Below are positions 10,463 to 54,297 of a DNA stretch of 64,000 nucleotides, piece after piece. The stretch's first letter is position 1, and each line of letters opens with the position of its first letter. The notes beneath the pieces were generated by a model. The model was given only the letters and a program-made list of their open reading frames with translations, ran no database searches and was not told the origin of the DNA. The translations under genes were made by a program, and so were the position numbers. The stretch covers positions 1-64,000 of the forward strand of contig NZ_JAPDOG010000019.1 in NCBI RefSeq assembly GCF_026013545.1, in the 5' to 3' direction. Source of the DNA: Defluviimonas salinarum (GTDB lineage: Bacteria > Pseudomonadota > Alphaproteobacteria > Rhodobacterales > Rhodobacteraceae).

Positions 10463-10487
10463 CGCCCTGCCGGCGACTACTTGTGCG

Positions 10488-10823: not shown

Positions 10824-10980
10824 GCGACACTACTTGTGGTGGGCCGCTGTCGCTCAAGGCGTGGCGACCACTCTGAATGATTGGAATGCGGGACTGAGCG
10901 GACAATCAGGCTGTGCTGGTCAACAGCTCCTTCTGCCCACACCGTCGGTGATGGAGAATCCATTTGATAGCCCGGCGGTG

Positions 10981-11671: not shown

Positions 11672-11805
11672 TTCGGCCTGATGCAGCACGCCCATGATCT
11701 GGGCTTCGGTGAAACGGCTCTTCTTCATCGGCATCTCCTCGTTCATCCTGCCGAGAGAATTCTAAGTTCGCATCCCATTAACCATGGGGAGGATTACCGT
11801 ATTGC
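11672..11805 (-). mobile_element. IS3-family (IS407-like) orfA start, remnant
   Basis: On the minus strand an ATG at 11728 begins MKKSRFTEAQIMGVLHQAE and then stops, matching the first codons of IS407-group orfA. A terminal-repeat-like TAATCCTCCCCATGG lies upstream near 11797-11783. It abuts the tail of the neighbouring IS3 remnant. Confidence 0.6.
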
Positions 11806-11846
11806 TTCGCCAAAAGGGCGAATTTGGGGCGTTGGGGTTACATCTG

Positions 11847-31061: not shown

Positions 31062-32612
31062 TCAGATCTTCGTGAACCTTACCGGATCGGGATGCCCGTC
31101 CGAAAGTATGACCGGGCTGAGGTTCGCGTCGTGGATCGCCACCAGGGGTTCGAAGCAGATGAAGACGAAGTCGCCGGATTCCTCCATCAGGTCCTCCATC
31201 CGGTTGAACATCGCCCTGCGCTTGTCGGTGTCCTGTTCGATCAGCGACTTCTGGTAGAGCTCCTCGTATTCGGCGCTGTCGAAGAAGGTCCAGTTGTAGA
31301 CGCCGATCTGGTCCGGGCGGAACCAGACGAGGTTCTCGGTCGGGTCGACGCCGCCTGCAAAGCTCTGCAGCACCAGTTCCAGCGAGAGGTAGTCGTCTCC
31401 TGCGGTCTTGTCGCCCAAGGCCCAGTAAGCGGCATCCTCGGTCGGCTGGATGACGATGGTGATCCCTGCCTCGGCAAGGCTTGCCTGAATGATCTGGGCG
31501 ATCGTCTGAGAGGTCGAGTCGGTCTGCGTCACGAGGTTCAGCGTCAGCCCCTCCGCGCCGGCCTCGGCCAGAAGCGCCTTGGCCTTCTCGACATCGCGCG
31601 TGTCGATGATGTTCTTTTCGCGCGCGAAGGCGGTGCCGGGCTGGACCACCCCGGCCGAGCGTCCGACAAGCCCGTCATAGGCGCCCTGAAGCACCGCGTC
31701 GCTGTCATAGGCGTACTGGATCGCCTGCCTCACGCGGATGTCCTTCAGGGGTTCGGCGTTCTGGTTGATGGTCAGCCAGACGTACCGCGTCGATTCCGCC
31801 TCGATCAGCGCCGCGCCTTCGGGCATCGCCTCCTTCAGCTGCTTGACCGCGGCGGGCGCGAGCCGGGTGTAGTCGAAGGCATCGGCCTCGTAGGCAAGCT
31901 GAGCCGCCTGGTCATCGGTGACGATGTAGATTTCGACCGTCGAGAAGTCAGGTTTCTCTCCGGCCCAGGCCGGGTTCGGCACCAATGTTACCTTTTGCTG
32001 CTGCTCCCAGCTGTCCAACAGGTACGGTCCGCACTGTGCCGGGATCTCCGTCGTGTACTGGCCGCCCACGGCTTCGACCGCTGCCTTGCAGACGATATGA
32101 CCGCCGTAATAGGGCATGGCGATGACGATGAAGGGCGCAAACGCCTCGGTCAGGTGGATGACGCCGTTCCGGTCGTCGATGACCTCGACCTCCTTCAGCT
32201 TCTCGAACTGATAGGCCCAGGCGCTGTCGGACCCGGCGATTCGCTCATAGGAGAACTTGACGTCATGGGCAGTCACGGGCCCGTGGTCGCCAGTCCAGAC
32301 CAGCCCCTCCCGCAGCGTGAAGGCGAGCCGCGTGCCGTCGAGCCATTCGAGCTTTTCCGCGGCGTAGAGTTCCCACTGGTTGCCCGCGCGCATGTCGCCC
32401 ATCCGCACAAGCGATACCTGCGTGCAGCGCGGGATGATCTCGTCCAGTTCACCGATGATGCCCCACGGGTCGAGTACCTGGAAATCGGAGGTCACGCGGA
32501 TGCGGAGCGTGTCGCCCTCGGCCGCCCAGGCGAAATGCGGCGAGGCGGCGGCGGCGACCAGGCCGGCACCGGCAAGCTTCAGGAATTTCCGTCTATCTGT
32601 GTTCCAGTTCAT
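31062..32612 (-). CDS. Tat-exported solute-binding protein, dipeptide/oligopeptide type
   Basis: 516 residues of the SBP_bac_5 (DppA/OppA) type. A twin-arginine signal (DRRKFLKLAG, Arg7-Arg8) and hydrophobic stretch end in HFAWA. Family landmarks are LEWLDGTRLAFTLREGLVWT, AHDVKFSYERI and IRVRQAIQYAYDSDAVLQGA. Tat export implies folding before export, occasionally because of a bound cofactor or ligand. GGGAGGAAGAC precedes the ATG, which overlaps the ATPase gene by 20 nt. The ligand may be a peptide or a larger betaine conjugate. Confidence 0.9.
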   Translation of the reverse strand: MNWNTDRRKFLKLAGAGLVAAAASPHFAWAAEGDTLRIRVTSDFQVLDPWGIIGELDEIIPRCTQVSLVRMGDMRAGNQWELYAAEKLEWLDGTRLAFTLREGLVWTGDHGPVTAHDVKFSYERIAGSDSAWAYQFEKLKEVEVIDDRNGVIHLTEAFAPFIVIAMPYYGGHIVCKAAVEAVGGQYTTEIPAQCGPYLLDSWEQQQKVTLVPNPAWAGEKPDFSTVEIYIVTDDQAAQLAYEADAFDYTRLAPAAVKQLKEAMPEGAALIEAESTRYVWLTINQNAEPLKDIRVRQAIQYAYDSDAVLQGAYDGLVGRSAGVVQPGTAFAREKNIIDTRDVEKAKALLAEAGAEGLTLNLVTQTDSTSQTIAQIIQASLAEAGITIVIQPTEDAAYWALGDKTAGDDYLSLELVLQSFAGGVDPTENLVWFRPDQIGVYNWTFFDSAEYEELYQKSLIEQDTDKRRAMFNRMEDLMEESGDFVFICFEPLVAIHDANLSPVILSDGHPDPVRFTKI

Positions 32613-33582
32613 GTCTTCCTCCCTCTGTCATCGTTTCGGCAAAATGGCAGCGCGCAGAGCGGCCCCGGCCGATGTCGCCGAGCGCGGGCGGCTCGACGCG
32701 GCAGATCTCCCGGGCGAGCGGGCAGCGGGTGTGGAACTCGCAGCCCGCCGGGCGGCGCAGTATGCTCGGGATCTCGCCCCGGATCGCCAGATCGGCACGG
32801 CGCTTGCGGGGATCAGGCTTCGGCTCAGCCGCGATCAGGCTTCGCGTGTAGGGGTGGCGCGGATCGGCGAAGATCGCGCGGGTCGGCCCCGTCTCGACCA
32901 GGCGCCCGAGATAGAGGACGGCGATACGGTCGGCGACATGGCGGACGAGCGCGAGGTTGTGGGTGATGATCAGATAACTCAGCCCGTGCCGTTCCTTGAG
33001 GTCGGCCATGAGGTTGAGGATATCCGCCTGCACCGAGACATCGAGCCCCGCTGTGGGCTCATCCGCGATCACCAGCGCCGGCTTCAGCGCCAGCGCGCGG
33101 GCCACGCCCACCCGCCGCGCCTGACCGCCGGACAGTTCGTGCGGATACCGCGCGGCCATCTCTGGCGGCAGGCCGACTTCGGCCAGAAGCTCCGCGGCCT
33201 TGTCGTGGCGGTTCCTCACCGCGATACGGTGGATCGCGAAGGGCTCGGTCACCGCCTCGCCCACGGTCATGCGCGGTGAAAGCGAGGCCGTCGCGTCCTG
33301 GAACATCAGCGCCGCCCTTCGCCGTATGGCGCGGAAATCGGCGGGCCGGGTCAGTTCGGCCCCGTCGAACCAGAGCCTCCCGCCGCTCACCGGCTGTAAC
33401 CCCAGGACCGCGCGGGCAAGCGTCGTCTTGCCCGATCCGCTTTCGCCGACCAGGCCCAGCGTCTCGCCCGGCATGAGGTCGAGCGACACGCCCGAAAGGA
33501 TGTTGAGCGGCGCCGCGTCTGCGAACCAGCCGCCTCGCCCCAGGTCCACGTCAAGGTCGCGGATCGACAGCAGCACCGTCAT
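32593..33582 (-). CDS. ABC transporter ATPase, DppF/OppF type
   Basis: 329 residues. Walker A GESGSGKTTLARAVLG, Q-loop in LMFQDATASLSPR, signature LSGGQARRVGVARAL, Walker B ALVIADEPTAGLD. A C-terminal oligopeptide-ABC extension has clustered cysteines (GCEFHTRCPLAREICRVEPP), as in enzymes with an Fe-S or disulfide site. It overlaps the neighbouring ATPase gene by ATGA. Confidence 0.92.
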   Translation of the reverse strand: MTVLLSIRDLDVDLGRGGWFADAAPLNILSGVSLDLMPGETLGLVGESGSGKTTLARAVLGLQPVSGGRLWFDGAELTRPADFRAIRRRAALMFQDATASLSPRMTVGEAVTEPFAIHRIAVRNRHDKAAELLAEVGLPPEMAARYPHELSGGQARRVGVARALALKPALVIADEPTAGLDVSVQADILNLMADLKERHGLSYLIITHNLALVRHVADRIAVLYLGRLVETGPTRAIFADPRHPYTRSLIAAEPKPDPRKRRADLAIRGEIPSILRRPAGCEFHTRCPLAREICRVEPPALGDIGRGRSARCHFAETMTEGGRHELEHR

Positions 33583-34553
33583 GGCGCCACCTCATGGCAC
33601 AGCGCGTTGCGGTCCGGACCGAGCCCTACGCGTGGCGGCGGTGCCGCCCGGCAGCGGTCCGTCGCGATCCCGCAGCGGTCGGCGAAGCTGCAACCGGTGG
33701 GCGGGCTGGACAGATCCGGCAGCCGCCCGCCGATCGCGGGAAGCCGGCCCGTCGCCGCCTCGATCCGTGCCGGGTCGCAGGCGAGGAGCGCGCGGGTATA
33801 GGGGTGGCGGGGATCGTGAAAGAGGGCGTCGACCGGTGCTTCCTCGACGACCTCGCCGGCATACATCACCGCCACCCGGTCGCATAGCTCCGCGATCACG
33901 CCAAGATGATGGGTGACGATGACGATGGCGCAGCGATAGTCGGCCTGCAACTGGCGCAGCAGATGAACGATCTGCGCTTCCATCGTGACGTCGAGCGCGG
34001 TCGTCGGCTCGTCCGCGATCAGCACCGACGGCCGCATCAGAAGCGCCGCCGCGATGGCCGCCCGCTGTCGCATTCCGCCCGAGAGTTCATGGGGAAACCG
34101 GCCCATCGCATGGTCGGGGTCGGAAAGCCCCACCCGCGCCAGCATGTCGCGCGCGCGGCGCCATTTCTCGCGGCCCGCCAAGCCGTCGAGGTTGAACTGG
34201 AAGTCGACAAGCTGCGCGCCGACGGTCAGGACCGGGCTGAATGCGGTCATCGGGTCCTGGAAGACCATCGCGATCTCGCGGCCGCGAAGCCGTCTCCGGT
34301 CCACCGGTGACAGGGCGAGGATGTCGCGCCCGTTCAGGCGAACGACCCCGGATGTCACTTCCGCATTCGTTCCCACAAGGTCGATCATCGCCGCCGCAAG
34401 CGTCGACTTGCCGCAGCCGCTTTCGCCGGCAATCCCCAGAACCTCGCCCTGCCGGACAGCGATACTCACGTTCCTCAGGGCCGCAATGGCGCCGCCCGGC
34501 ACCCGGTAGCGAAGCGACAGGTTCTCGACCGAGAGGACCGGTTCGCTCATCAT
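33579..34553 (-). CDS. ABC transporter ATPase, DppD/OppD type
   Basis: 324 residues. Walker A GESGCGKSTLAAAMIDL, FQDPMTAFSPVLTVG, signature ELSGGMRQRAAIAAALL, Walker B VLIADEPTTALD. The C-terminal Cys-rich region is TGCSFADRCGIATDRCRAAP. It pairs with the preceding ATPase as the heterodimeric motor of the importer. Confidence 0.92.
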   Translation of the reverse strand: MMSEPVLSVENLSLRYRVPGGAIAALRNVSIAVRQGEVLGIAGESGCGKSTLAAAMIDLVGTNAEVTSGVVRLNGRDILALSPVDRRRLRGREIAMVFQDPMTAFSPVLTVGAQLVDFQFNLDGLAGREKWRRARDMLARVGLSDPDHAMGRFPHELSGGMRQRAAIAAALLMRPSVLIADEPTTALDVTMEAQIVHLLRQLQADYRCAIVIVTHHLGVIAELCDRVAVMYAGEVVEEAPVDALFHDPRHPYTRALLACDPARIEAATGRLPAIGGRLPDLSSPPTGCSFADRCGIATDRCRAAPPPRVGLGPDRNALCHEVAP

Positions 34554-38385: not shown

Positions 38386-39903
38386 TCAGTTCATCGGTGC
38401 GCCGCCGGCTTCCTTGCGCCGGGAGACATAGGCGTCGAGCGCTTCGGCCACGGCGGGGTCGAGCGCGGGTTCCTCGTATTCGGACAGAAGCGCCTTCCAG
38501 ACCGCATTCGCGCGGGTCCGCGCGTCGATGCCGCCGCGTTCGAGCCAGGTCGGGTAGCTGTCCCAGTTCGACAGAAGGGGCGCATGAAACGCGGTCTCGT
38601 AGCGTTCCATCGTGTGTGCGGTGCCGAAGAAATGGCCTCCCGGCCCCGCCTCGCGGATCGCGTCCAGCGCGAGGGCCTCGGGCGAGGTGTCGATGGGCGA
38701 GAAATAGGCGTCCATCATCATCAAAAGCTCGGCGTCGAGGATCAGCTTCTCGAAACTGGCCGTCAGCCCGCCATGCAGCCAGCCCGCGCCATGCTCCAGA
38801 AGATGCGCCCCGCCCATGAGCGCGCCCCAGAGCGCCATCTGACTCTCATAGGTCGCCTGCGCGTCGACCTCGTTCGCGGCCGTCACATTCGAAGACCGGA
38901 ACGGCACGCCGACATGGCGGGCCAGCTGGCCCGAGGCCTGTGCGGCCTTGACATACTCGGGCGTTCCGAAGGCCGGGCTGCCGGAGCGCATGTCGACATT
39001 CGACGTGAAACCGCCGTAAAGGACCGGCGCGCCGGGGCGGACGATCTGGGTGAGCACGATCCCCGCCAGCGCCTCGGCATGCTGCTGCGCCAGCGCGCCC
39101 GCGAGCGTCACGGGCGCCATCGCGCCTGCCAATGTGAAGGGCGTGATCGCCAGCGCCTGCCCGTGCTCGGCCATCGCGATCAGCCCCTCGGCCATCGGCA
39201 CGTCGAGTTGCAGCGGCGAGTTGGTATTGATGACTCCGACGAGCGCTGGGCGTTCCGCCAGCCCCTCCGGCGTCGTGCCGAGCGCGATCGCCGCCATCTC
39301 GATCCCGTCCATCGTGCGCGCGCGGCCGAGCGTCTGGCCCTGCCAGGTCTTGTCGAGCAGCCCGATCTGGGCGCGGTAGATGTCCAGGTGCCGGGTATGC
39401 GCGGGCAGGTCCATCGGCTCGAAGGGCCCGCCGCCCTCCTGGTGGATCACGTTCAGGACCTGGACGAGCCGCATGTAATCGCACATCTCGGCGAAAGTCC
39501 CGTCGCGCCGCCCCCGGTCGTTGTCCATCACATAGGCCGGCCCGCCGACCGAGGTGTAGACGCAGACATCGCCGCCAACGGTCACATCATGCGCAGGATT
39601 GCGGGCATGGAGCGTGAAGCGTTTCGGCACGGTGCACAGGTGTTCGGCGACCAGCCCCGGATCGAGCCGCACCACGTCATCGGCAACCTCGCCGCCTGCG
39701 TCGCGATAAAGCGCGCGAGCCGCACCGTCGAGCACGCGCATGCCGAAGCGGGCGAGGATGTCGAGCCCGGCCTGGTGTATCGCCGCGACCTGATCGGCGC
39801 TCAGCACCTCGACGGGTACATATGGACGCCGCCGCTGGCCAAATCCCGGCTGCGGCATGCGAGCCGCGCCATTCCGGCTCCTGCGGCGGGTGCGGGCGGT
39901 CAC
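38386..39903 (-). CDS. MttB-family (trimethylamine methyltransferase-like) protein, non-pyrrolysine
   Basis: 505 residues from a GTG overlapping the flavoprotein stop. Family features: LSADQVAAIHQAGLDILARF near the N-terminus, FTLHARNPAHDVTVGGD, VYTSVGGPAYVMD, and the glycine-rich GLTASFEKLILDAELLMMMD near the end. The frame has no amber codon, so it belongs to the non-pyrrolysine branch, whose studied members move a methyl group from betaines such as glycine betaine or proline betaine to a corrinoid protein. No corrinoid protein gene is visible in this operon. Confidence 0.85.
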   Translation of the reverse strand: MTARTRRRSRNGAARMPQPGFGQRRRPYVPVEVLSADQVAAIHQAGLDILARFGMRVLDGAARALYRDAGGEVADDVVRLDPGLVAEHLCTVPKRFTLHARNPAHDVTVGGDVCVYTSVGGPAYVMDNDRGRRDGTFAEMCDYMRLVQVLNVIHQEGGGPFEPMDLPAHTRHLDIYRAQIGLLDKTWQGQTLGRARTMDGIEMAAIALGTTPEGLAERPALVGVINTNSPLQLDVPMAEGLIAMAEHGQALAITPFTLAGAMAPVTLAGALAQQHAEALAGIVLTQIVRPGAPVLYGGFTSNVDMRSGSPAFGTPEYVKAAQASGQLARHVGVPFRSSNVTAANEVDAQATYESQMALWGALMGGAHLLEHGAGWLHGGLTASFEKLILDAELLMMMDAYFSPIDTSPEALALDAIREAGPGGHFFGTAHTMERYETAFHAPLLSNWDSYPTWLERGGIDARTRANAVWKALLSEYEEPALDPAVAEALDAYVSRRKEAGGAPMN

Positions 39904-41984
39904 TGCGCGGCCTCCCCGCAGGCGTCGAGATCGCGCATTGCGAAAGGCGCATCGCGGCGGATCCGTGGTGCTGCCGCGGCAAGTTCACGCGCCGCGCGGT
40001 GGGCCTGATAGACCGCATGCGCGATGGCGCCGGGCGCGTTGGCATCGCCCGTGAGGACCAGCGATTTCGGCTCCCCGGTCCCGGCCAGCGCATCGTAGAG
40101 CGCCGAGCCCCCTGCGCGCTGGCCGACCACGACGAGGGCGCGCGCGGCGATCTGCCGCCGTTCACCCGTGAATATCTGGGCGAGCGACAGCGTCTCCCCG
40201 TCGAAAGCCTCGACGATCTCAAGGGTCCGGTACGCGATCCCGGCCTTGAGGAATGCCTGATGCACGAGCGGCTGTTCGTTCGTCATGACGCCCCAGGATT
40301 GGGCGCTTCCGGCGCTTGTGACATAGGTCGTGTCGAGGCCCCGCGCCGCCAGATGCTCGGCGACGGCCGACCCCATGTAGTAGTTGTCGAAGTCGAAGAC
40401 CGCGACGGGGCCTTCGATCTCTGCGCCGGCCGCGATGTCGTCCGGGGTGTAGACACGGGGGCCGACGAGGGATCCCGCCGGAATCTCATTCGCGCCGCAG
40501 AGGTTCGCAGTCCAGCGCGCGCCGGTGGCTATGACCACGTGATCGGCGCCGAAGTCCCGCACGTCGGCGGCCTCCATACGGCTTTCGACATGAAGCGCCA
40601 CTCCCGGCAGCTTCCGAAGCTGGCCAAGACGGTAGTCGACGACCCTGAACCATTGCCGCAAACCCGGGAGCCGGCTTTCCCACAAGAGCCTGCCGCCGAA
40701 GTCGCGCTGTGCCTCCGCGACCGTCACGCGAAAGCCTCGGCGGCCAAGCGTCAGCGCCGCCTCGAGCCCGGCGGGGCCGCCGCCGACGATCAGGACCGAC
40801 CCCCCGGCGTCCCTTCGGACAATCTCCGGATGCCAGCCGCGCCGCCATTCCTCTCCCGCCGTCGGGTTCTGGGTGCAGCGGACCCATACCCCGTCATGCC
40901 AGGACGAGATGCAGATGTTGCATCCGATACATTCGCGGATGTCGTCCTCGCGCCCCTCCTCGATCTTCCTGGGCAGGAACGGATCGGCGATCGACGGCCG
41001 CGCCGCGCCGATGAAGTCGAGGACGCCGCGCCGGACCATCGAGACCATCGTGTCGGGCGAGGTGAAACGCCCGACGCCGACGACGGGCTTGGCGGTCAGG
41101 GTCTTGACGAAATCGACCATGGGCTCGTGACTGCCCTCGGGCGTGAACCGCGAGGGCGAGCAATCCGTGGCCGAATAGTCCATCTTGACGTCAAAGAGGT
41201 CGGGCGCGTCGCTGAGATGCGTTATCACCTCGTGTGCTTCCGATGGCGCGACTTCGGACGGACGCGAGCGAAGTTCCTGGAGCGAAACCCGCAAGGCAAC
41301 CGCGCAACGCCCGCCGGTCGCCTCGCGCACCGCGTCGATCAGCTCCTCGGTCAGGCGGACGCGGTTCCGGACCGAGCCGCCGTAGGCGTCGGTGCGATGG
41401 TTGTAGTCCGAAAGCAGGAACTGGTAGGGCAGATAGCCCATCCCGGCATAGACGTAGAGGATGTCGAAGCCAGCACGTTCGGCCCGTTTTGCCGCTTCGG
41501 CATGCCATCGGATCAGGTTGCGGATATCGCCCGCGTCCATGACCCTGGGGCGGGCGGATGACATGAAACCCACATGCGTGGCCATCCAGGGCACGCCTGA
41601 GGGCGAGAGCGGTGCGTGCCGCGTTGTTCGGTTCACCGCGGCCGCGCCACCGTGCCAGAGCTCCACCGCCGCGAGCGCGCCGTGGGCGTGGACCGCATCG
41701 GTCATCACACGGTGCGCGCGGATGTCGGCCTCGTCCCAGAGCGAGGCGAAGGGGAACGGGCTGTCGTCGGACGACGGATGGACCGAACAAGCTCCGGTCG
41801 AGACGACGGCCCAGCCGCCCTCGGCCTTCATGCCACGGAAAGCGGCGCGGACATGGGGATTCGCGTTGGTCATGCCAGAGGCATGCGGCACCTGGAAAAA
41901 CCGGTTCCTTGCGGTTTTCGGACCGATCCGTACAGGGCCGAACAGCAAGTCGAAGCGAGGGGGGCGGGCCATTGAAGACACCAT
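39900..41984 (-). CDS. TMADH-like iron-sulfur flavoprotein (possible N-methyl amine demethylase)
   Basis: 694 residues; an ATG at 41972 is an alternative start. The FMN-binding barrel (about 10-340) is followed by 4Fe-4S cysteines 352, 355, 358 and 370 (ECIGCNICISSW, VRCTQNPTAGEEW) and a nucleotide domain (VLIVGGGPAGLEAALTLG). The order and TAGEE(W)RRGWHPE text follow trimethylamine dehydrogenase. Two TMADH active-site residues differ: the flavin-linking Cys30 is Ala35 (VPHASG) and His172 is Met182 (YVYAGMGYLP). That points to non-covalent FMN and another substrate, such as N-methylproline or another methylated amino acid. First gene of the operon. Confidence 0.87.
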   Translation of the reverse strand: MVSSMARPPRFDLLFGPVRIGPKTARNRFFQVPHASGMTNANPHVRAAFRGMKAEGGWAVVSTGACSVHPSSDDSPFPFASLWDEADIRAHRVMTDAVHAHGALAAVELWHGGAAAVNRTTRHAPLSPSGVPWMATHVGFMSSARPRVMDAGDIRNLIRWHAEAAKRAERAGFDILYVYAGMGYLPYQFLLSDYNHRTDAYGGSVRNRVRLTEELIDAVREATGGRCAVALRVSLQELRSRPSEVAPSEAHEVITHLSDAPDLFDVKMDYSATDCSPSRFTPEGSHEPMVDFVKTLTAKPVVGVGRFTSPDTMVSMVRRGVLDFIGAARPSIADPFLPRKIEEGREDDIRECIGCNICISSWHDGVWVRCTQNPTAGEEWRRGWHPEIVRRDAGGSVLIVGGGPAGLEAALTLGRRGFRVTVAEAQRDFGGRLLWESRLPGLRQWFRVVDYRLGQLRKLPGVALHVESRMEAADVRDFGADHVVIATGARWTANLCGANEIPAGSLVGPRVYTPDDIAAGAEIEGPVAVFDFDNYYMGSAVAEHLAARGLDTTYVTSAGSAQSWGVMTNEQPLVHQAFLKAGIAYRTLEIVEAFDGETLSLAQIFTGERRQIAARALVVVGQRAGGSALYDALAGTGEPKSLVLTGDANAPGAIAHAVYQAHRAARELAAAAPRIRRDAPFAMRDLDACGEAAQ

Positions 41985-42848: not shown

Positions 42849-43604
42849 ATGGCTATTCTCTGGAGGCTTTGGGCGACCGCTGCCGGCGTGATGCTCGCGG
42901 TCCTTCTGGTGTTCCTCGCTCTGTCCACCTTCCAGTTCAGCCGCGTCCATTCCGACCTCGTCGGTGAGCGCCTCATCGTGCTGGCCGACCGAACCGCCGC
43001 TCCCTTTCAGGCCGCCGTGCGGCTCGGTTTGCCGATCGCCAGCGTTCGCAACGCTGTCGGAATCCTGGAGCGGGCGCGGCGGTCGGACGACAGGATCTCG
43101 GCGATCTACGTCTTCGACCGGGAGGGCGGAATCGTCCACGCGACTCTCGGCGAAGCCGGCGACGGGCCCGAGGTCGCGGCCGTGCGCGCGCGGATGATCG
43201 GCGCGCAGGAATGGCATGGCGAGATCGCGTCCGGATTCATCGCCGGCGTGAACATCGCGGGGCCGTCCAGCGACTGGGCCGGCGGGATCGCGGTTCTGTA
43301 TCCGCGCGGCGGCAGCACGACGAGGGTGTGGGCGATGGCGGCAGAGCTTTCCGTCGCGGTGCTCGGCATCTTCGTGCTCGGCGCTCTGACCGCCGGACTG
43401 CTGCTGAGGATCGGCCTGCGGCGGATCATCTCGGCCTTCGATCGCGTCGACGCCGCGATCGCGGATTTCGAACGCGACACCTGGCGCCGGGAGGACGAAG
43501 CTGCGCCCGCGAGCGGATTGCGGGCCGATCTCGACGAGTCCTACGATCAATACCGTTCCGCGGTTGCCGAACTCCGGCACCTCGAGGCCGGGCGGCCGAC
43601 ATGA
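42849..43604 (+). CDS. Sensor-like membrane protein without output domain
   Basis: 251 residues from the ATG at 42849. Transmembrane helix about 7-27, a periplasmic domain about 28-159 with the Cache-like ERLIVLADRTAAPFQAAVRL and ISAIYVFDREGGIVHATLGE, a second helix about 162-190, then a HAMP/coiled-coil-like cytoplasmic tail (RRIISAFDRVDAAIADFERD) that ends without kinase, cyclase or methyl-accepting region. Its periplasmic domain resembles that at the start of the next gene, so the two may pair. It overlaps the next gene by ATGA. Function unknown. Confidence 0.7.
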   Translation: MAILWRLWATAAGVMLAVLLVFLALSTFQFSRVHSDLVGERLIVLADRTAAPFQAAVRLGLPIASVRNAVGILERARRSDDRISAIYVFDREGGIVHATLGEAGDGPEVAAVRARMIGAQEWHGEIASGFIAGVNIAGPSSDWAGGIAVLYPRGGSTTRVWAMAAELSVAVLGIFVLGALTAGLLLRIGLRRIISAFDRVDAAIADFERDTWRREDEAAPASGLRADLDESYDQYRSAVAELRHLEAGRPT

Positions 43605-45598
43605 GCGCGAGCACGGCCCTGCCGGAGCCAGGCCTGCTGCGCGCCCGGCTGATCGCGATCCTCACCGCGATCATGGTGGCCGTCGTCGCGATGTTCGGCA
43701 TGGCGACGCTGGCCGCGTTCGACCGGGCGATCGCGCCGGAACTCGAAAACCGCACCCGTCTCATCGGCTCGATCCTGAGCAGCGAAATCCAGCGTACGCT
43801 CGACCTCGGGGTTCCGTTCCGGGCGCTCGGCGGGCTCGAAGCCTACATCGGCGAAACGATAAACGAGTTCGACGAAATCAGCCGGATCACGATCGTTCAG
43901 GGTGGCGACAACGTCATCGCGGAAATAACCCGCGACGAGGCCCCGACTCTCCTGCAACGCTCGGGCCTGGCGGACGTCGCCGGGATCCGGTCCGTCCAGT
44001 TCGCGTTTCCGGTGTTGATCGGCAACGAACTGGTCGGCCGGATTGAGGTGGTGGGCAGCCCGCAATTCGTCGAAACCCGGTTGCGCGACGTGTTCATGGA
44101 CGTCTCGGTCCTCGCCGTCGTCGCGCTGCTCCTGGGCGTCGAGCTGGCGCTGGTTGTCGCCGCCGCCTCGGTGTGGAAGCCATACGGGCGGGTTCTGAGG
44201 TTGCTGGCCGGACAGATGGCGGGGGATTTCTCACAGACGATCCGCGCGACGGGCGTCTCCGGTGTCCGGCGCGCGGCCGTGCGCCTGAACGAGCAGGCCG
44301 AGGATCTGGCGCGCCGCGCGCAAGCGCTGCCGCCGGCTCTCCGGCAGTCCTTGGGCGACGGCGCAGCCGGTGTCGCGTCGGCCATGCGCCTTCAGCGCAT
44401 GCGGTACTCGGATTTCAATGACGTGCGGCTGGCGCTGTTTCTCTTTGCCACGGCAACTGAAATCACCGCGTCCTTCCTTCCGATCTATGCCCGCGACGCG
44501 GCGCGCCCGGCATGGCTGTCAGGCGAGCTGTCGGCAGCAGCTCCGCTTGGCGTCTACCTGATCGCGGTCGCCGCCCTTTCGCCCTTCGGCGGCGCCTTGT
44601 CACGGCGCTTCGGAGCCCGCCGGGCCTTCGTCGCCTCGGCGGTTCCGACGGCGGTGGCGCTGGCGTCGATGGCGATCGCCGACTCGCTGGTCGCGGTGAC
44701 GCTGTGGCGCGGGGTCATCGGGATATTCTATGCGCTGGCGACCATCGCCTGCCAGGAATACACGATCCGCGCCGGCAGCACCCGAGAGGCGTCGCAATCC
44801 TCCAGTGCCTTCGTCGGCATGATCTTCGGCGGCGCTTTCTGTGGATCTGTCCTCGGCGGCGTGATCGGCGGGCGGTTTGGTTTCCCTGCCGCGCTTTTTT
44901 TGGGGGCGCTCATGGCACTGACCGCCGGCGGTGTCGCCTATTCGGCCATGCGCGGCCGGGCAGGGGAGCCGGCCGCGCCCCAAAGCCCGGTGCCGCAGCC
45001 CGATGCCCCTGCGGTACGGGGGAACGGACTCGCCTTCTGGTCGCTGACGCTTTGCGTCTCCATCCCGACGAGCGCGACGACGGCGATCTTCATCTGGTAC
45101 TTGGCGCCGCTTGGCCTGGCGGCACGCGGCTACCCGCCGGCCGACGTCGCGCGCATCATCATGCTCTATTATCTGGCGTCGACGCTGATCGGCCCTCTGG
45201 CGAACGGGCTGGCGAAGGGCCGCGGCGGGACGGCGGTTCCCGTCGTGACCGGGGCGGCCTTCGCCGGGGTGATTCTGCTGTACTTCCGGTCGGCGAGTGA
45301 TATCTGGGCCGTCCTTGCGCTGGTGTCCGGCTGCGGAATCGGCCACGCGCTGATCCGCGCGCCGATGACCGCGCTCGCGGTCGAACTGGCGGGCAAGTCC
45401 AGACGCATGATGAGCGCGCTGCGTTTCAGCGAGCGTGCCGGGGCGCTGGCCGGCCTGTCCGCGAGCGCACTGCTGCTGGGCGGTTCCGACCCTTCCTCGA
45501 CGCTCGGTCTCCTCGGCGGGGTGTCTTTGGCAGGCGGTCTCGGGTTTGCTATAGTGTTAGGGCTTTCCAGAGATCGGGACCGGGGCGCGCCAGTATGA
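43601..45598 (+). CDS. Sensor domain fused to a major facilitator transporter
   Basis: 665 residues. About 16-39 is a membrane helix; 40-165 a Cache-like periplasmic domain (LDLGVPFRALGGLEAYIGE, FDEISRITIVQGGDNVIAEI); 167-191 a second helix; 192-245 a HAMP-like linker (KPYGRVLRLLAGQMAGDFSQ). About 270-660 is a 12-helix MFS transporter with motif A (GGALSRRFGARRAF) and a middle loop near residue 455-485. Direct fusion of a ligand-sensing module to an MFS permease is unusual. It overlaps both neighbours by ATGA. The MFS part probably exports or imports the ligand bound by the periplasmic protein encoded next; inference. Confidence 0.75.
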   Translation: MSASTALPEPGLLRARLIAILTAIMVAVVAMFGMATLAAFDRAIAPELENRTRLIGSILSSEIQRTLDLGVPFRALGGLEAYIGETINEFDEISRITIVQGGDNVIAEITRDEAPTLLQRSGLADVAGIRSVQFAFPVLIGNELVGRIEVVGSPQFVETRLRDVFMDVSVLAVVALLLGVELALVVAAASVWKPYGRVLRLLAGQMAGDFSQTIRATGVSGVRRAAVRLNEQAEDLARRAQALPPALRQSLGDGAAGVASAMRLQRMRYSDFNDVRLALFLFATATEITASFLPIYARDAARPAWLSGELSAAAPLGVYLIAVAALSPFGGALSRRFGARRAFVASAVPTAVALASMAIADSLVAVTLWRGVIGIFYALATIACQEYTIRAGSTREASQSSSAFVGMIFGGAFCGSVLGGVIGGRFGFPAALFLGALMALTAGGVAYSAMRGRAGEPAAPQSPVPQPDAPAVRGNGLAFWSLTLCVSIPTSATTAIFIWYLAPLGLAARGYPPADVARIIMLYYLASTLIGPLANGLAKGRGGTAVPVVTGAAFAGVILLYFRSASDIWAVLALVSGCGIGHALIRAPMTALAVELAGKSRRMMSALRFSERAGALAGLSASALLLGGSDPSSTLGLLGGVSLAGGLGFAIVLGLSRDRDRGAPV

Positions 45599-46596
45599 AA
45601 GAGCTATGCCGTCGGATTGTCGTGGGGCTCGGCGCCGCACTCATACTGCCGGTCGCTGCCGCCGCGTCCGATTACACCGTCTTCATCGCGACCTGGCGGG
45701 GATGCGAAGAAGCCTGCCAGGGATTCCAGGATTACCTGACCGAAGCCGGGATCGACGTGGCGTTCGTCCTGCGCGACGCCAAGACCGAGGCCGCGGCCCT
45801 GCCCGCCATATTCGAAGAGGCACGGTCGCTCGACCCCGACCTGATCGTGTCCTGGGGAACCACGGTCACGCGCGAAATCGCGGGAACCCTCGATGACCTG
45901 GATGACCCGGCCTTCAACCATGATATCCCGCAAATCTTCATGATCGTTGCCGATCCGGTCGGGTCCGGGATCGTGGCGTCGCTCGACGCGACCGGCCGTC
46001 CGAACCTGACCGGCACCTACAACCGCATGCCTGAAACCGTGGCTCTGGAGACGATACGGGGCTACCTGCCGGATTTCGACCACCTCGGATTGCTCTACAA
46101 CACCGACGAGAAAAACTCGGTCCTCAAGCGCGACGAACTGGAGGCGCTGACCCGGGAACTGGGGATCGGGTTCACCGCGCTCGAAATCGCGGCGGGGGCC
46201 GACAACGCGCCGATGGCCGAAGACCTCGCTCCGAAGATGGCAGAGTTGAAGGCCGCGGGCGTCGATTTCGTCCATGTCGGCAGCTCGTCTTTCCTGCGCG
46301 ACAATTCAGCCCTACTGCGCAAGGCCGCACTCGAACAGGCGCTTCCCGTGCTCAGCCCCTACGAAGCGATGGTCGTCAGCGGCGACGCGCTGGTGTCCGT
46401 GGCATCCCGCTACTACGAAGTGGGCCGTCTGGCGGGGGCGCAGGCCGAACGCATCCTGGTCGAGGGGGTTACGCCCGGAGACCTTCCGGTCGCCCGGATG
46501 ACCAACTTCGCGGTGACCATCAATCTCGGAATGGCAAAGCAGCTCAAACTATACCCGCCGATCGGCCTGCTTCAGATTGCCGAGACCGTCAATTAG
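45595..46596 (+). CDS. Periplasmic substrate-binding protein (ABC_sub_bind family)
   Basis: 333 residues. A signal peptide ends near AAAAS and the mature protein begins DYTVFIATWRGCEEACQGFQ. PF04392-type features are LDPDLIVSWGTTVTREIAGT, FMIVADPVGSGIVASLDATG, NLTGTYNRMPETVALETIRG and the C-terminal TNFAVTINLGMAKQL. Members normally feed ABC importers, but no ABC permease or ATPase is present here; the gene is instead the last of the sensor/MFS unit. That suggests it presents a ligand to the periplasmic sensor domains. Confidence 0.8.
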   Translation: MKELCRRIVVGLGAALILPVAAAASDYTVFIATWRGCEEACQGFQDYLTEAGIDVAFVLRDAKTEAAALPAIFEEARSLDPDLIVSWGTTVTREIAGTLDDLDDPAFNHDIPQIFMIVADPVGSGIVASLDATGRPNLTGTYNRMPETVALETIRGYLPDFDHLGLLYNTDEKNSVLKRDELEALTRELGIGFTALEIAAGADNAPMAEDLAPKMAELKAAGVDFVHVGSSSFLRDNSALLRKAALEQALPVLSPYEAMVVSGDALVSVASRYYEVGRLAGAQAERILVEGVTPGDLPVARMTNFAVTINLGMAKQLKLYPPIGLLQIAETVN

Positions 46597-47718: not shown

Positions 47719-49305
47719 TCAACCCCGGTTGCGCGGCCAGTCCGCGTTCGGGCGCATCCGTTCGCGCGGCAAGCGGACCGGGTATTTCGCGCGGATCTGT
47801 TCATCGATCGCACGCGGAACATACTCCGGGTAATGCGCGCCGAGCGTCGAATCGACATAGTCGATGGCGCGGTCGAGCGCGGTTCGGTTGCCCTTCTCGG
47901 CCCATTCGCTCGGGCTCATGCGGTCGCCAAGCTTCGGGTAGACGTAGTCGCGCTCCATCAGGCTCATGGTCTGGCCATGCGCGAGGAAGTGGCCGGGGCC
48001 GCCCATGCAGACCTCGCGGATGACATCGACCGAGACGGTGTCCTCGTTCACGTCGATGCCGCGCACCGTGCGCAGGGCCGCGCCGACCGAGTCGTTGTCC
48101 ATCGCGAGGCTTTCGAGCGAGAAGCCCATGAGCGAGGCGACCATGCCGCCCGCCTCGTACATCAGGTTGGCGCCGGAATTGGCAGTGACGACATGGTTGA
48201 TGGCCTTCTCGTAGCCCGATTGCGCATCCGGCATCTTGCTGTCTGCGATGCCCGAGGGGATCCCGGAGATCAGCCCGTAGTACCGGCTCATCTGGCCGCA
48301 GGCCGATGTCAGGAGCGCCTGTTCGCCGCTGCCGCAACACATCGCCCCGGTCCTGAGGTCCGACACGAAGGGCCAGAAGCCGAGGATCACCGGATTGCCC
48401 GGCGCGACCGCATCGACATAGATCATGCCGGCAAGCAGTTCGGCGAGGATCATCACGACGTTGCCGGCGAGCGCGGCGGGGCCGGTGGCACCGGCCTGGC
48501 CGAGCGAGACGAGCATGATCGGCATTCCCGCCTTCGCGCCGGTCTCGAGGCACAGGCAGCTGTCGGCCGCCCATTTCAGCGGCGAGACGGTGAAGCAGCA
48601 GGACATCGAGACGAAGGGGCGCTCGCGCCACTGCTTCTCGCCGCCCGCGAGCAGATGCATCACCTCGAGCGAGGCTTCGAGCTGGCGCACGCCGCCCCAG
48701 CTGGTGCCGACATGCTTTTGGGTACCCGCGAGGCTCGCGTAGCAGGTGTTGAAATCCATCTCGAAGAAGTCTTCGATCTCGCGCGGGACCACGGTGCGCT
48801 GGAAGAAGTGGATGTTGTCGAGCGTGTCGACGAGGCGCGAGCAGTCGTAAAGATCGTTGAGCGTGGTGCCGCGATAGGCGCCGGTGCGCGGGTTGACCAT
48901 GTTCACCGTCGCACCGGCGGTACCACAGTAAAAGCGGCTGCCCTGCATGTGCATGTCGTGCCGGGGATCACGCCCGGCGAGCAGAAAGTCGCGATTGATG
49001 CGAGGGATGTAATCCTCGACCAGGGCGCGGGGGAAGGTGATGCGGCCGTCGCGGTAGATGCAGCCGAGCCGGGTCAGATAATCGACCGTCGAGGGCAGGC
49101 AGTCGCCGATCCCGACGGTTTCGAGCACGTCGAGCGCGGCCTCGTGGATCCGCGCCATGTCGGTCTCGCTCAGCGGGCGGAAATGGCGCGGGTTCTCCAT
49201 CCCGCCGCGCACCGGCCGATGGTCCGGTCCGCCCGGTGCCGCCCGTAGCGCCTTTCGCGCCTCGCGCCCGCCGCGTCTTGAACTCGTCGCCTGCATCTGG
49301 TTCAT
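47719..49305 (-). CDS. Second MttB-family methyltransferase-like protein, non-pyrrolysine
   Basis: 528 residues from the ATG at 49305. Family text: LSETDMARIHEAALDVLETV, YCGTAGATVNMVNPRTGAYR, GTSWGGVRQLEASLEVMHLL, CGSGEQALLTSACGQMSRYY and MGGPGHFLAHGQTMSLMERD. Only distantly similar to the copy at 38386, so not a recent duplication. No amber codon in frame. Divergent from a LysR gene 152 nt away and near an aldehyde dehydrogenase and a dimethylglycine-dehydrogenase-like gene, which supports a demethylation role on a quaternary or tertiary amine. Confidence 0.83.
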   Translation of the reverse strand: MNQMQATSSRRGGREARKALRAAPGGPDHRPVRGGMENPRHFRPLSETDMARIHEAALDVLETVGIGDCLPSTVDYLTRLGCIYRDGRITFPRALVEDYIPRINRDFLLAGRDPRHDMHMQGSRFYCGTAGATVNMVNPRTGAYRGTTLNDLYDCSRLVDTLDNIHFFQRTVVPREIEDFFEMDFNTCYASLAGTQKHVGTSWGGVRQLEASLEVMHLLAGGEKQWRERPFVSMSCCFTVSPLKWAADSCLCLETGAKAGMPIMLVSLGQAGATGPAALAGNVVMILAELLAGMIYVDAVAPGNPVILGFWPFVSDLRTGAMCCGSGEQALLTSACGQMSRYYGLISGIPSGIADSKMPDAQSGYEKAINHVVTANSGANLMYEAGGMVASLMGFSLESLAMDNDSVGAALRTVRGIDVNEDTVSVDVIREVCMGGPGHFLAHGQTMSLMERDYVYPKLGDRMSPSEWAEKGNRTALDRAIDYVDSTLGAHYPEYVPRAIDEQIRAKYPVRLPRERMRPNADWPRNRG

Positions 49306-49392
49306 CGCGGCGCCCTTTCCCGCTGTGGTTTCGTGTCGCATCCGCATTGTGTGGCTGGCGCAGTTCCAGACAATTGATAGTTTTTAGGCGAT

Positions 49393-50482: not shown

Positions 50483-51937
50483 TCAGAACGACTGCAGGCG
50501 CTTCATGCCAACGTTCTTCGACTGGTAATAACTCGCCAGTGCCTCGACGCCCTTCTCGCGGCCGATACCGGATTTCTTGAAGCCGCCGAACGGGGTTTCG
50601 ACACCGCCGACACCCCATTCGTTGACATGCACCTGCCCGGCATCGAGCCGCTCGGTCGTCCAGATCGCGCGGTCGAGGTCGTTGGTGAAGACAACCGCCG
50701 CGAGCCCGTATTCGGTGCCGTTGGCGATCTCGAGCGCCTCGCGCGGGTCGGAGAACTTCAGGACGGAGAGGACCGGGCCGAAGATCTCCTCCTTGTTCAC
50801 GCGGTCGTCCGGCGACACGTCGGCCAGGATCGTCGGCGCCATGAAGTTGCCCTCGCGATCGAGCTTGCCGCCGCCGGCCACCGCCCGCGCGCCCTGATGC
50901 ACGCCGATCTGGGCGTAGTTGTCGACCTTGGCGAGTTGCTCGGCCGAAATGAGCGGCGTGATGTCGGGATCCTCGATCCCGGCGCCGATGGTCAGGCCGC
51001 TCACCATCGCGGCGAGCCGCTCCACCGTCACGTCGTAGACGCTTTCATGGACGACGAGACGGGACATGGTATCGCAGCACTGGCCAGTGTTGAAGAAGAT
51101 GCCCGCCTGGGTCTGGGCCACCACATTGTCCATGTCGGCATCGGCATAAACGATGCCCGGCGTCTTGCCGCCAAGCTCCAGCACCGCCGGGATCAGGCTT
51201 TCGGCGGCGGCATGAGCGACCTTGCGACCGGTGACGACGGAGCCGGTGAAGACGATCTGGTCGATGCCGGAATGGCTGGCAAGCGCCGCCCCCGCCTCGT
51301 GGCCGTAGCCGCAGATCAGGTTGACGGCACCTTCGGGCAGGCCGACCTCCTCGGCTAGTTCGGCGAGCACATAGCCCGCCGTCGGGTCGAGTTCGGGCAG
51401 CTTCACGACGCAGGCATTGCCCGCCGCGAGTGCAGCCGACAGAGAGCGCGCGATCATGTTCAGCGGGAAGTTCCACGCAATGATGTGGGCGCTGACGCCG
51501 TAAGGGCATGGGACCACATAGTCGACATAGCCGTCTCCGAGCGGGATGTATCTTCCCTCGATCTGTGCCGCGAGCCCGCCGTAATACTCGAAATACTTGG
51601 CCGAGCCCTCGACCTCGCCCCGCGCCTCCGAGATGCGCTTGCCCGCGTCGAGCGAGATCAGCGTGGCAATTTCCTCAGACCTTTCGCGCAGCTTGCGGCC
51701 GATCTCGGCCACCATGCGGCCACGCGCCATCGGCCGCATGTCGACGAGCGCGCGCGAGGCCACGCAGCGGCGCGCGGCGGCGACGGCGCTGTCGACATCG
51801 GCCGCGGTCGCCCGCGCCACTTCCGAGAGCGGCCGCCCCGTCGCGGGGTTCAGGAGCAAGATCCGCCCGCCATCCGATCCGTCGACCCATTTGCCGCCGA
51901 TATAGTTGCGCCAGTAGTCCTTCATCGCTGCGCTCAT
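50483..51937 (-). CDS. NAD-dependent aldehyde dehydrogenase (betaine-aldehyde-dehydrogenase-like)
   Basis: 484 residues. Catalytic Cys288 lies in NTGQCCDTMSRL, Glu254 in VLELGGKTP and Asn155 in AWNFP; the NAD-site lysine is in ACVVKLPELD, where Leu precedes the usual Pro-Ser-Glu. C-terminal PFGGFKKSGIGREKG is typical of this class. Its start overlaps the stop of the flavoprotein gene, so the two act in one pathway, oxidising an aldehyde released by demethylation or deamination. Confidence 0.9.
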   Translation of the reverse strand: MSAAMKDYWRNYIGGKWVDGSDGGRILLLNPATGRPLSEVARATAADVDSAVAAARRCVASRALVDMRPMARGRMVAEIGRKLRERSEEIATLISLDAGKRISEARGEVEGSAKYFEYYGGLAAQIEGRYIPLGDGYVDYVVPCPYGVSAHIIAWNFPLNMIARSLSAALAAGNACVVKLPELDPTAGYVLAELAEEVGLPEGAVNLICGYGHEAGAALASHSGIDQIVFTGSVVTGRKVAHAAAESLIPAVLELGGKTPGIVYADADMDNVVAQTQAGIFFNTGQCCDTMSRLVVHESVYDVTVERLAAMVSGLTIGAGIEDPDITPLISAEQLAKVDNYAQIGVHQGARAVAGGGKLDREGNFMAPTILADVSPDDRVNKEEIFGPVLSVLKFSDPREALEIANGTEYGLAAVVFTNDLDRAIWTTERLDAGQVHVNEWGVGGVETPFGGFKKSGIGREKGVEALASYYQSKNVGMKRLQSF

Positions 51938-54297
51938 GCCAGTGTCCTTTCCATGATCTCATCTTCCGTCCCGGCGGTTCCCTTCGTCGGTGCCGCCGGA
52001 TGCCAGGCACCCATGACGCGGACTTCGAGCCCGCCCGCCCAGGGATCGAGCAGCGCGAAGGCCAGTGCCTTGTTCCCGAGGTGCCCCCATCCGCCCGAGG
52101 TCGTGCGGCCGACGATGCGCCCGGTCTCGTCGCGAACCGGCTCCGTCCCGTGCGGCATCGTGTCCGCGCCCTCGATCTGCAGATGGATGAGCTGTCGTGT
52201 CGTGCCGGGGGCGCCCTCGGCCATCGCGGGCGTCACCTCGACATTCAGTTCTTCCGGCCAGGCAGCTTCCGCGGCCTCCAGCCGGAGCGACTCGAGCGCC
52301 CGCGCCCCGATCAGCGCCGCGCCCTCTTCGAGAGCAAGGAAGACGTGGCGCAGCATGTCCGCGCGGACGTGGAGCCGGTAACCGGACCGCCCGAATGGAT
52401 CCGCGTGATGGACGCGGACTGGCGCATGGCCGATGGTGATCGTTCGCACGGCACCGCGCGGAAACGCCTCGTCGTCCAATGCCGCCGACGTTGCCTTCTG
52501 CAAATGTTGCCGCGCCGCCGGTCCCAACAGGAGCAGCGCCCCCTCTGCGGCAGTCAGGTTTTCGATCCACAGGTCGTTCCCGGATGGCGCGGACCGGTGA
52601 AGAGCGTCGAGAACCCGGCGCTCCGCCACCGCGGTCGCGTTCAGGACGAAGCCTTCATCGCCATCGCGGGCAACCGCGACCTCCGCCTCGATACCGCCAT
52701 TGGGAGCCAGCAAATAGCCCGATGACGCCTTGCCGGGCGCGGGCGGAGCGACAGACAGAACCCGGCCGAGAAGCGCCGCCGCCCCGGCGCCGGACACTCG
52801 GATTGCCGCGCCGTGGCTGACATCGGCCAGCGCCACGCCGGCTGTCGCGGCCCGGCACTCTGCGCCGACCGCGCTGTGCCAGTTCGGACGGTAGAAGGAA
52901 GGCTCGTCGACGGCGCCCTCCGGCGCGAACCAGTTCGGCCGCTCCCATCCGGCGACGGCGCCGAACCGCGCCCCGCGCGCGGCAAGGAGGTCGTGGATCG
53001 GCGAGGTGCGCAAATCGCGCGCCGCCGGCAGCTCCTCGCCGGGCTTCGGCAGGAGATAGGTGTGCTCATAGGCCTCCTCGACCTTGCGCGCGGACCATTC
53101 GCGCGTCGCCCATTCGCCGAAGCGGCGGGTGTCGCAGCAAGCCATGTCGACCGACGGCGCGCCTTCGAGGATCCACTCCGCCATCTGCCAGCCGATGCCC
53201 CCGGCGAGCGTGATGCCAAAGGGATTGCCTTCCGCCAGCCAGAGGTTCCTCGTCCCGAAGGCCGGGCCGACCGTCGGCAGGTCGTCGGGCGTGTAGGGCA
53301 TCGCGTAGTTGACGACACGGCGAACGCCCGCCGTGCCGAGCATCGGGACCCGTTCCACCGCGCGTTCGAGGTAGGGCAGGAGCTTTTCCATCTCGTCCGG
53401 GAAGGGCTCGGCCATGCCGGCAGGCGGCTCCGAGACGAACCGGGCCTCGCCGCGTCCGTCATAGGCGCCGACCAGAAGCGCGTCGCCCTCCTGCCGGCAG
53501 TAGAAGACATCCTCGGGGTCGCGCATCACCGGCATCTCCGGCAGACCCGCGCGCCGCCGTTCGGCAAGCTCCGTCAAAGGCTCGGTGACGAAGTACTGGT
53601 GCCGCACCGGCACGCATTGCGCTGTCAGCCCCAGCATCCCGGCGACGCTCTGGGCATGGTTGCCCGAGGCCGCCACGACATGGCGGGCGATGATCGTGCC
53701 CCGCGAGGTCTCCACCCGCCAGAAGCCGCCCGCCATCCGCGACAGCGCCGTCACCTCGCAGCCGCGCTGGATCCGGGCACCGCCCTGACGTGCCCCGGCG
53801 GCGAGACTCTGCGTCAGGTCGGCCGGGGCGATGTGGCCGTCCTGCGGATTGTAGAGCCCGCCGAGAACACCGTCGGTCGACATGAACGGCCAGAGCGTGC
53901 CGATCTCCTCCGGCGTCAGCAGGCGGGCCTCGGCACCAGTGGCCTCCGCCACACCCAAGTAACGCCTGAACTCGTCGAGCCGGCGGGAATGGGTGGCGAT
54001 CCGAAGGTTGCCGCAGGCATGGAAGCCCGGTGACATGCCGGTCTCGGCCTCGAGCCGGCCGTAGAGATCGACGCTGTACCGATTGAGCCGGCTGATGGTG
54101 GGGTTGAGCGCGTAGAGGATGACATGACCCGCCGCGAAGGCCGTCGCACCTGAGGCGAGTTCGTGCTTCTCGCACAGGACGACGTCGCGGCAGCCCTTCC
54201 GCGTCAGGTGAAAGGCGATGGAGCAGCCGACCGCGCCGCCGCCGATGATGAGAACCTCCGCCCTGTCCTGCACGATCCTACTCCGCATTCGCTTCAC
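51934..54297 (-). CDS. FAD oxidoreductase-GcvT fusion, dimethylglycine/sarcosine dehydrogenase-like
   Basis: 787 residues. The N-terminal D-amino-acid-oxidase-fold domain (about 12-380) carries VLIIGGGAVGCSIAFHLTRK; the linker and C-terminal aminomethyltransferase-like domain (about 430-775) holds VALADVSHGAAIRVSGAGAA and FGRSGYRLHV. Enzymes of this build oxidise N-methyl groups and pass the carbon to tetrahydrofolate. The histidine that anchors FAD in dimethylglycine dehydrogenase (TWHAAG) is Phe here (ATAFAAG), so the cofactor is probably non-covalent. Divergent from the LysR gene at 54382. Confidence 0.85.
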   Translation of the reverse strand: MKRMRSRIVQDRAEVLIIGGGAVGCSIAFHLTRKGCRDVVLCEKHELASGATAFAAGHVILYALNPTISRLNRYSVDLYGRLEAETGMSPGFHACGNLRIATHSRRLDEFRRYLGVAEATGAEARLLTPEEIGTLWPFMSTDGVLGGLYNPQDGHIAPADLTQSLAAGARQGGARIQRGCEVTALSRMAGGFWRVETSRGTIIARHVVAASGNHAQSVAGMLGLTAQCVPVRHQYFVTEPLTELAERRRAGLPEMPVMRDPEDVFYCRQEGDALLVGAYDGRGEARFVSEPPAGMAEPFPDEMEKLLPYLERAVERVPMLGTAGVRRVVNYAMPYTPDDLPTVGPAFGTRNLWLAEGNPFGITLAGGIGWQMAEWILEGAPSVDMACCDTRRFGEWATREWSARKVEEAYEHTYLLPKPGEELPAARDLRTSPIHDLLAARGARFGAVAGWERPNWFAPEGAVDEPSFYRPNWHSAVGAECRAATAGVALADVSHGAAIRVSGAGAAALLGRVLSVAPPAPGKASSGYLLAPNGGIEAEVAVARDGDEGFVLNATAVAERRVLDALHRSAPSGNDLWIENLTAAEGALLLLGPAARQHLQKATSAALDDEAFPRGAVRTITIGHAPVRVHHADPFGRSGYRLHVRADMLRHVFLALEEGAALIGARALESLRLEAAEAAWPEELNVEVTPAMAEGAPGTTRQLIHLQIEGADTMPHGTEPVRDETGRIVGRTTSGGWGHLGNKALAFALLDPWAGGLEVRVMGAWHPAAPTKGTAGTEDEIMERTLA

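Follow-up and report, generated by a model that had tools for sequence, protein, structure and literature searches.

What does a periplasmic binding protein do when the only permease encoded beside it belongs to the major facilitator superfamily (MFS) and itself begins as a sensor? The question is raised by three genes of Defluviimonas salinarum (contig NZ_JAPDOG010000019.1, positions 1 to 64,000; this whole stretch of 64,000 nucleotides is called the window below), which encode, in order, a membrane-anchored sensor (S1), a second sensor (S2) fused to an MFS permease, and a receptor of the ABC_sub_bind family (PF04392). The three genes are a conserved unit, and we see about an even chance that its products work as a single membrane assembly: an MFS transporter gated by sensors and linked to a binding protein. 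The parts of the unit, in positions of the window, are as follows:

42849..43604, + strand: orf1, sensor 1 (S1), 251 amino acids (aa); transmembrane (TM) helix, extracytoplasmic PAS/Cache domain, TM helix, cytoplasmic helical tail
43601..43604, + strand: ATGA overlap of S1 and S2-MFS, 4 bases
43601..45598, + strand: orf2, 665 aa, joining sensor 2 to an MFS permease; MFS part assigned by Pfam, fused homologue modelled
43736..44074, + strand: periplasmic sensor domain of orf2, aa 46-158; boundaries set by us
44078..44182, + strand: second TM helix of sensor 2 (TM2), aa 160-194; carries E181 (44141-44143)
44183..44410, + strand: HAMP-like linker of orf2, aa 195-270; least conserved part of orf2, missing in some relatives
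44411..45580, + strand: MFS core of orf2, aa 271-660; conserved R276, R370, Q385, R608, E611 and R612
45595..45598, + strand: ATGA overlap of S2-MFS and receptor, 4 bases
45595..46596, + strand: orf3, ABC_sub_bind (PF04392) periplasmic receptor, 333 aa; assigned by Pfam

The first-pass annotation, made from the letters alone, had described three genes joined by ATGA overlaps, and both 4-base overlaps are present, at orf1/orf2 and at orf2/orf3. It was also right about the second and third products: in orf2 a two-helix module seen by hydropathy precedes a match to MFS_1 (PF07690; aa 277-618, E 3.7e-21, 75.8 bits against a cut-off of 33.4), and orf3 matches the PF04392 profile above its cut-off (E 5.2e-26, 92 bits against 25.9). 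The match of orf3 to the TrpX model NF041285, at 86.8 bits, lies below the equivalog cut-off of 390. Compared by sequence with the PDB, orf3 finds three receptors (6hni, 3lkv and 3lft; best E 1.7e-14), orf2 finds no match (E up to 0.01) and orf1 none (E up to 1). Near its N-terminus the receptor has a CxxxC pair (C37 and C41, 45703-45717) common to 37 of 52 aligned trio receptors and absent from the seven receptors of Vibrio/Motilimonas fused trios in that alignment. At two loci (L019, 10347-12492, and L044, 8869-11149) one fused sensor-MFS is followed by two tandem PF04392 receptors.

The sensor proposed for orf1 is borne out by its two hydropathic helices and by its structure model (45 rows, mean predicted local distance difference test score, pLDDT, 92.1; predicted template-modelling score, pTM, 0.73), the fold of which resembles the extracytoplasmic PAS/Cache domains of WalK, KinD, CitA and DcuS. 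No Pfam family matches orf1 and no output domain was found in it. Pfam HAMP has zero matches in orf1 and orf2 and Pfam Cache none over its cut-off, with sub-threshold Cache matches only in some relatives, so the label “HAMP-like” that the tail had been given fails at the profile level and rests on position and on reading the sequence by eye. Kinase or other transmitter output domains are likewise absent from orf1-orf3 by Pfam. The statement that no ABC (ATP-binding cassette) genes lie nearby needs narrowing: none lies within the unit, and the nearest ABC-ATPase-like open reading frames (ORFs) found with one ABC-ATPase query are about 8 kb away (32593-34553), adjoined by an SBP_bac_5 gene (31065-32612). 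The unit thus holds neither the permease and ATPase of an ABC importer nor the DctQM-type or TctAB-type membrane subunits of the tripartite ATP-independent periplasmic (TRAP) and tripartite tricarboxylate transporters (TTT); MFS_1 is its only permease match. PADLOC gave no match, and a defence system was therefore rejected.

How widely the three genes travel together was asked of a collection of one genome per species, searched with an alignment of orf2-type proteins and with no neighbours required. The search matched 111 stretches, 93 of them encoding a relative, and the best 80 were kept (the named loci; loci are cited by L numbers). All three of S1, S2-MFS and receptor are present in 78 of the 80, the exceptions being L048, where the contig ends after the MFS, and L086 (see below). 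The trio is thus found elsewhere in the same company, and the MFS homologues do carry the sensor part, since trio loci found from the MFS family show S1 and S2. Counted by gene, the 80 loci hold 82 sensor-MFS genes, 77 of which have both a receptor and an S1 within 1.2 kb, the S1 being separate in 45 cases and fused in 32. The S1 of L036 (6219-6965) was overlooked by the script counting neighbours; at the second copy in L110 the receptor is just upstream and S1 sits with the first copy; L057 and L076 have a broken frame; and L070 and L100 have about 0.8 kb between MFS and receptor. The same 4-base overlap of S1 and S2-MFS recurs in 28 of the 48 unfused pairs.

A genome-contig search with a single window protein gave no matches; the alignment-based search succeeded. 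Genome samples gave 29 loci (23 from a class sample and six new ones from a phylum sample, possibly overlapping with the named set), with all three genes within 1.5-kb flanks in 22, or in 18 of 25 once L116-L119, whose genes were used in building the models, are set aside. Contig ends cut L127, L134 and L136, the last 726 bases of L130 are without a receptor, and L129 and L136 place the receptor first. Matches occur in 8 of 148 relatives (the window's own genome counted; E <= 1e-20) and, at E <= 1e-60, in 23 of 385 class genomes and 9 of 398 phylum genomes. The window's genome has two trios, the second (G000:C26) consisting of a 933-aa S1-S2-MFS fusion followed by a 341-aa receptor, and its only two PF04392 genes (three matches, two in one frame) are both trio partners. 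ABC-ATPase-like ORFs occur in 9 of 89 loci, none of them between trio genes (one query, E 1e-8).

S1, S2 and MFS form a single polypeptide in 35 of 91 collected sensor-MFS proteins and 56 are unfused S2-MFS (window excluded; the pairs L016/L037, L019/L043, L022/L064 and L035/L069 are identical). Among the fusions, the 23 from Vibrio/Motilimonas match the S1 model mostly over its first ~100 positions. On the MFS tree (35 fused and 56 unfused rows, window included) the fused and unfused states need at least four changes, each forced by well-supported branches; some may be splits and not fusions, and several branches are long. The fused groups are Vibrio/Motilimonas and Roseobacter/Mesorhizobium, the latter with one unfused member (L040), and the fused L017 lies next to the unfused protein of the window. 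That one and the same gene pair has been joined repeatedly is good evidence for joint action of the products, and proteins in which both sensors are naturally fused to the MFS support a single complex. The earlier proposal that a ligand-loaded receptor engages the sensors and gates or regulates the MFS would be compatible with this. A chance neighbourhood is ruled out by the 78 of 80 loci together with the repeated fusion. An ABC operon that has lost its permease is unlikely, as receptor and MFS stand together in Alphaproteobacteria, Gammaproteobacteria and the sole betaproteobacterial locus (L038). When 73 trio MFS rows were set against five others, a single clade was rejected (p-AU 0.024, approximately unbiased test; 18 of the 91 rows were dropped, namely L110_split_3833, five near-duplicates and every second Vibrio/Motilimonas fusion); with long branches, and with two of the five outside rows (L138 and L165) carrying sensors themselves and two more keeping S2 TM2, the test says only that relatives are not cleanly outside.

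The modelled homologue is L017 (919 aa, 86 rows; mean pLDDT 88.4, pTM 0.89), in which two helix-flanked sensor modules are followed by the MFS helices. Foldseek matches of this model in the PDB (best 50 of 709) are led by VMAT2, NorA, MdfA and SotB, with a TM-score to target of 0.86 for NorA and MFS identities of 13-19% among those best 50. By this model, the MFS fold appears closest, among the matches listed, to the efflux and vesicular drug:proton antiporters (DHA1-like). In all 77 aligned sensor-MFS rows a glutamate, E181, is found in the middle of TM2 of S2, and R608, E611 and R612 of the MFS are equally invariant, with R276, R370, Y377 and Q385 at 99%. Conservation of these residues (E181, R608, E611, R612; R276, R370, Q385) is what a working MFS would show, and the conserved charges speak for an MFS that still transports something. 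In the Azospirillum relatives L162 and L164 neither the HAMP-like linker nor a recognisable periplasmic domain remains, yet TM2 with its D...E pattern still stands ahead of the MFS; L138 retains the TM2 glutamate without the linker, and TM2 is missing from L137 (459 aa). Given the invariant glutamate and the survival of TM2 in relatives stripped of the other sensor parts, TM2 looks like a part of the transporter. Its divergence also keeps close to that of the MFS (r 0.93 for pairwise identities), and we believe it to be an extra helix of the permease.

On the reading that we prefer, the PF04392 receptor would capture a small periplasmic ligand and, once loaded, dock on S1 and S2 at their paired Cache domains; S1 and S2 would together behave like a receptor dimer. 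The signal would pass through TM2 of S2, which may pack on the MFS through its buried glutamate and serve as an additional MFS helix, and TM2 would shift the MFS between states and so switch substrate flux. The conserved unit, the natural fusions, the Cache and MFS folds and the invariant glutamate of TM2 are observed; docking, heterodimer, gating and flux are the steps that we infer. The DHA1-like fold of the model leans to proton-coupled efflux or export, and an exporter-like fold makes simple import less likely.

S1-like genes are also found in other company. At L045 (2254-6214), L021 (7797-10078) and L024 (7400-10155) one is followed by a protein of 404-626 aa without a Pfam match; in L021 this protein has an S2-like part, and in L045 it is followed by a SpoIIE phosphatase. 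Outputs other than the MFS may exist for S1/S2-type pairs. At L023 (G096:C92, 1289-4212) an S1-like gene precedes a protein with a Guanylate_cyc domain, in which no similarity to S2-MFS was found, and the ORF ahead of that S1-like gene resembles, by eye, the sensor-MFS end from L136 (G096:C55). A single operon may therefore hold receptor, sensor-MFS, S1 and adenylate cyclase.

The wider neighbourhoods were scanned with seeds from the same loci, identified by Pfam except for TssB (by eye, L072) and a TssA-adjacent family without a Pfam match. At least two gene types associated with type VI secretion systems (T6SS) lie in the flanks of 41 of the 80 named loci, or 40 without DUF6931 and the unassigned family. 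In 23 of the 41 (22 Vibrio, one Motilimonas) a fused trio is flanked by a clpV-type tssH on one side and an SBP_bac_3-like/FHA pair on the other, and the remaining 18 are near VgrG, TssA, Hcp or TssB genes. The SBP_bac_3-like protein of this tssH-FHA interval, just below its Pfam cut-off, is a second binding protein after the PF04392 receptor (L093, 9783-10505, and 22 other Vibrio/Motilimonas loci). The contig name and position of L083, whose fused trio is flanked by TssH and FHA genes, agree with those of vpr01s_08_01820-01800 of Vibrio proteolyticus; these genes, between clpV and fha of T6SS2, are noted as differing from the T6SS3 cluster, and the part of the paper available to us gives no function for them (PMC5666596). 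SpoIIE phosphatase genes mark 19 more named loci, 11 of them with an anti-sigma-type HATPase_c_2, and a DUF3369-HD response regulator with a histidine kinase occurs in 5 of 80 (L064 and four T6SS loci). Neither T6SS nor SpoIIE genes lie near the remaining 20, the window's closest named relatives among them.

For 38 of the 39 loci without T6SS genes nearby (L037 omitted) the sheath gene VipB was sought, the search covering 37 genomes; it was present in 21 and absent from 16, and the window's genome has no VipB match. A T6SS-specific part is thereby rejected as the general role: the trio frequently accompanies T6SS genes and is independent of them. Around the window trio, on the opposite strand, lie methylated-amine catabolism genes for MTTB (38389-39903 and 47722-49347), Oxidored_FMN (39903-41984) and DAO/GCV_T (51937-54297) proteins, and the surroundings also include an aldehyde dehydrogenase gene. 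These genes are a local and weak hint at a substrate, because clustering of neighbours over the loci showed no widely shared catabolic gene family.

Several observations weigh against a sensor-gated transporter. At L086 two S1/S2-MFS pairs stand without a receptor, L131 and the divergent S1-S2-MFS fusion of L138 have no receptor within about 1.4-1.5 kb, and in L137 a sensorless MFS stands beside a divergently transcribed receptor, so the parts of the trio can separate. At L020 and L038 an ABC-exporter-like ORF lies within ~0.35 kb after the receptor. The contact of TM2 with the MFS is read from conservation and not from model coordinates. Pairwise identities (80 units; eight loci omitted because they were duplicated, broken, poorly parsed or held double sets) correlate at r 0.93 for TM2 with MFS and 0.80 for the S2 periplasmic domain with MFS (0.87 with the receptor, 0.86 with S1), yet receptor and MFS reach 0.91, nearly the TM2-MFS level, and much of these correlations is due to shared descent. 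The T6SS and SpoIIE contexts, finally, suggest signalling as much as transport. In the main rival the MFS would accordingly be a transceptor, a membrane signal transducer of the receptor-sensor complex that no longer counts as a transporter, comparable to UhpC with UhpB, reporting to T6SS, SpoIIE or two-component neighbours. The 41 T6SS loci, the 19 with SpoIIE, the one more with DUF3369-HD and histidine kinase, and the adenylate-cyclase domain behind the S1-like gene of L023 all point this way. We nevertheless think it unlikely, given the 20 loci with neither T6SS nor SpoIIE nearby, the missing sheath gene in 16 searched genomes and the window's own, a window MFS with no fused kinase or cyclase in a unit that has neither, and the conserved charged residues of the MFS.

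Quite improbable, in our judgement, is that the receptor passes its ligand straight to the MFS as a secondary importer, with the sensors as a docking platform only. Conservation is highest in the receptor and the MFS (median pairwise identity 0.33 and 0.32, against 0.29 for TM2, 0.22 and 0.21 for the periplasmic domains of S2 and S1, 0.17 for the linker and 0.13 for S1 TM2 and tail), and L137 has a receptor next to a sensorless MFS; but the closest listed folds are antiporters of efflux or vesicular type, delivery needs no two signal-type sensor domains, and no catabolic gene family is widely shared among the neighbours. The least probable of the three alternatives is a regulated exporter whose small-molecule product would be made locally by neighbouring genes, with receptor and sensors reading an external cue; it overlaps the sensor-gated reading, in which direction stays open. 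The DHA1-like fold fits it, as do an ATP-grasp gene (10319-12298) after the complete trio of A. brasilense Sp7 (L166), a 274-aa gene, formyltransferase-like by eye, between MFS and receptor in Skermanella (L070, 9088-9912), and an annotated alpha/beta hydrolase downstream of the Azospirillum relatives. Small-molecule synthesis near the trio is possible on this evidence, but such biosynthesis-type neighbours were noticed in Azospirillaceae loci only.

No description of the trio appeared, by title or abstract start, among the open-access matches listed (subscription literature lay outside this search), and the word “MFS” was not found in PMC9545535 or in the Cache survey PMC4822843. In the literature covered, the architecture of the unit looks new, its mechanism being our own construction. 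If it is true, a receptor, Cache-pair and MFS unit would be a new control of a secondary transporter from outside the membrane, and the T6SS genes near half of the named loci (41 of 80) mean that the trio may be an overlooked sensory input of T6SS machines. We put forward tentatively, at somewhat less than an even chance, a further kind of binding-protein-linked transporter beside ABC, TRAP and TTT, in which receptor and Cache pair gate an MFS permease allosterically and a sensor TM helix has become the thirteenth helix of that permease, and which T6SS clusters of Vibrio and other bacteria have adopted as an environmental input.

To our knowledge, an MFS permease works either by itself or with one partner, and the systems described for uptake that depends on a binding protein are ABC, TRAP and TTT. 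The trio shares its receptor family with ABC importers that have PF04392 receptors (TrpX type, to which its match is weak), and the window's unit has an MFS instead of the ABC permease and ATPase. Receptors of the LuxP-LuxQ type combine a periplasmic binding protein with membrane-anchored PAS/Cache sensor domains and a kinase output; the trio likewise pairs a binding protein with PAS/Cache sensors, but its output is an MFS permease, its sensor chains are two distinct ones and its receptor is of PF04392. In UhpB-UhpC, a separate MFS protein, UhpC, signals to a kinase, so an MFS protein acts with a sensor there too, whereas in the trio the sensor is fused to the MFS and the unit has no kinase. 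The DHA1 antiporters and VMAT (NorA, MdfA, SotB, VMAT2) resemble the fused homologue in the MFS core fold, though the trio MFS is fused to Cache sensors, linked to a receptor and distant in sequence. Like the TRAP and TTT systems (reviewed in PMC8276074), the trio combines a binding protein with a secondary transporter, and it differs from them in its MFS_1 permease, PF04392 receptor and additional Cache sensor pair. Set beside all of these, the trio looks like an undescribed transporter controlled by a receptor and sensors.

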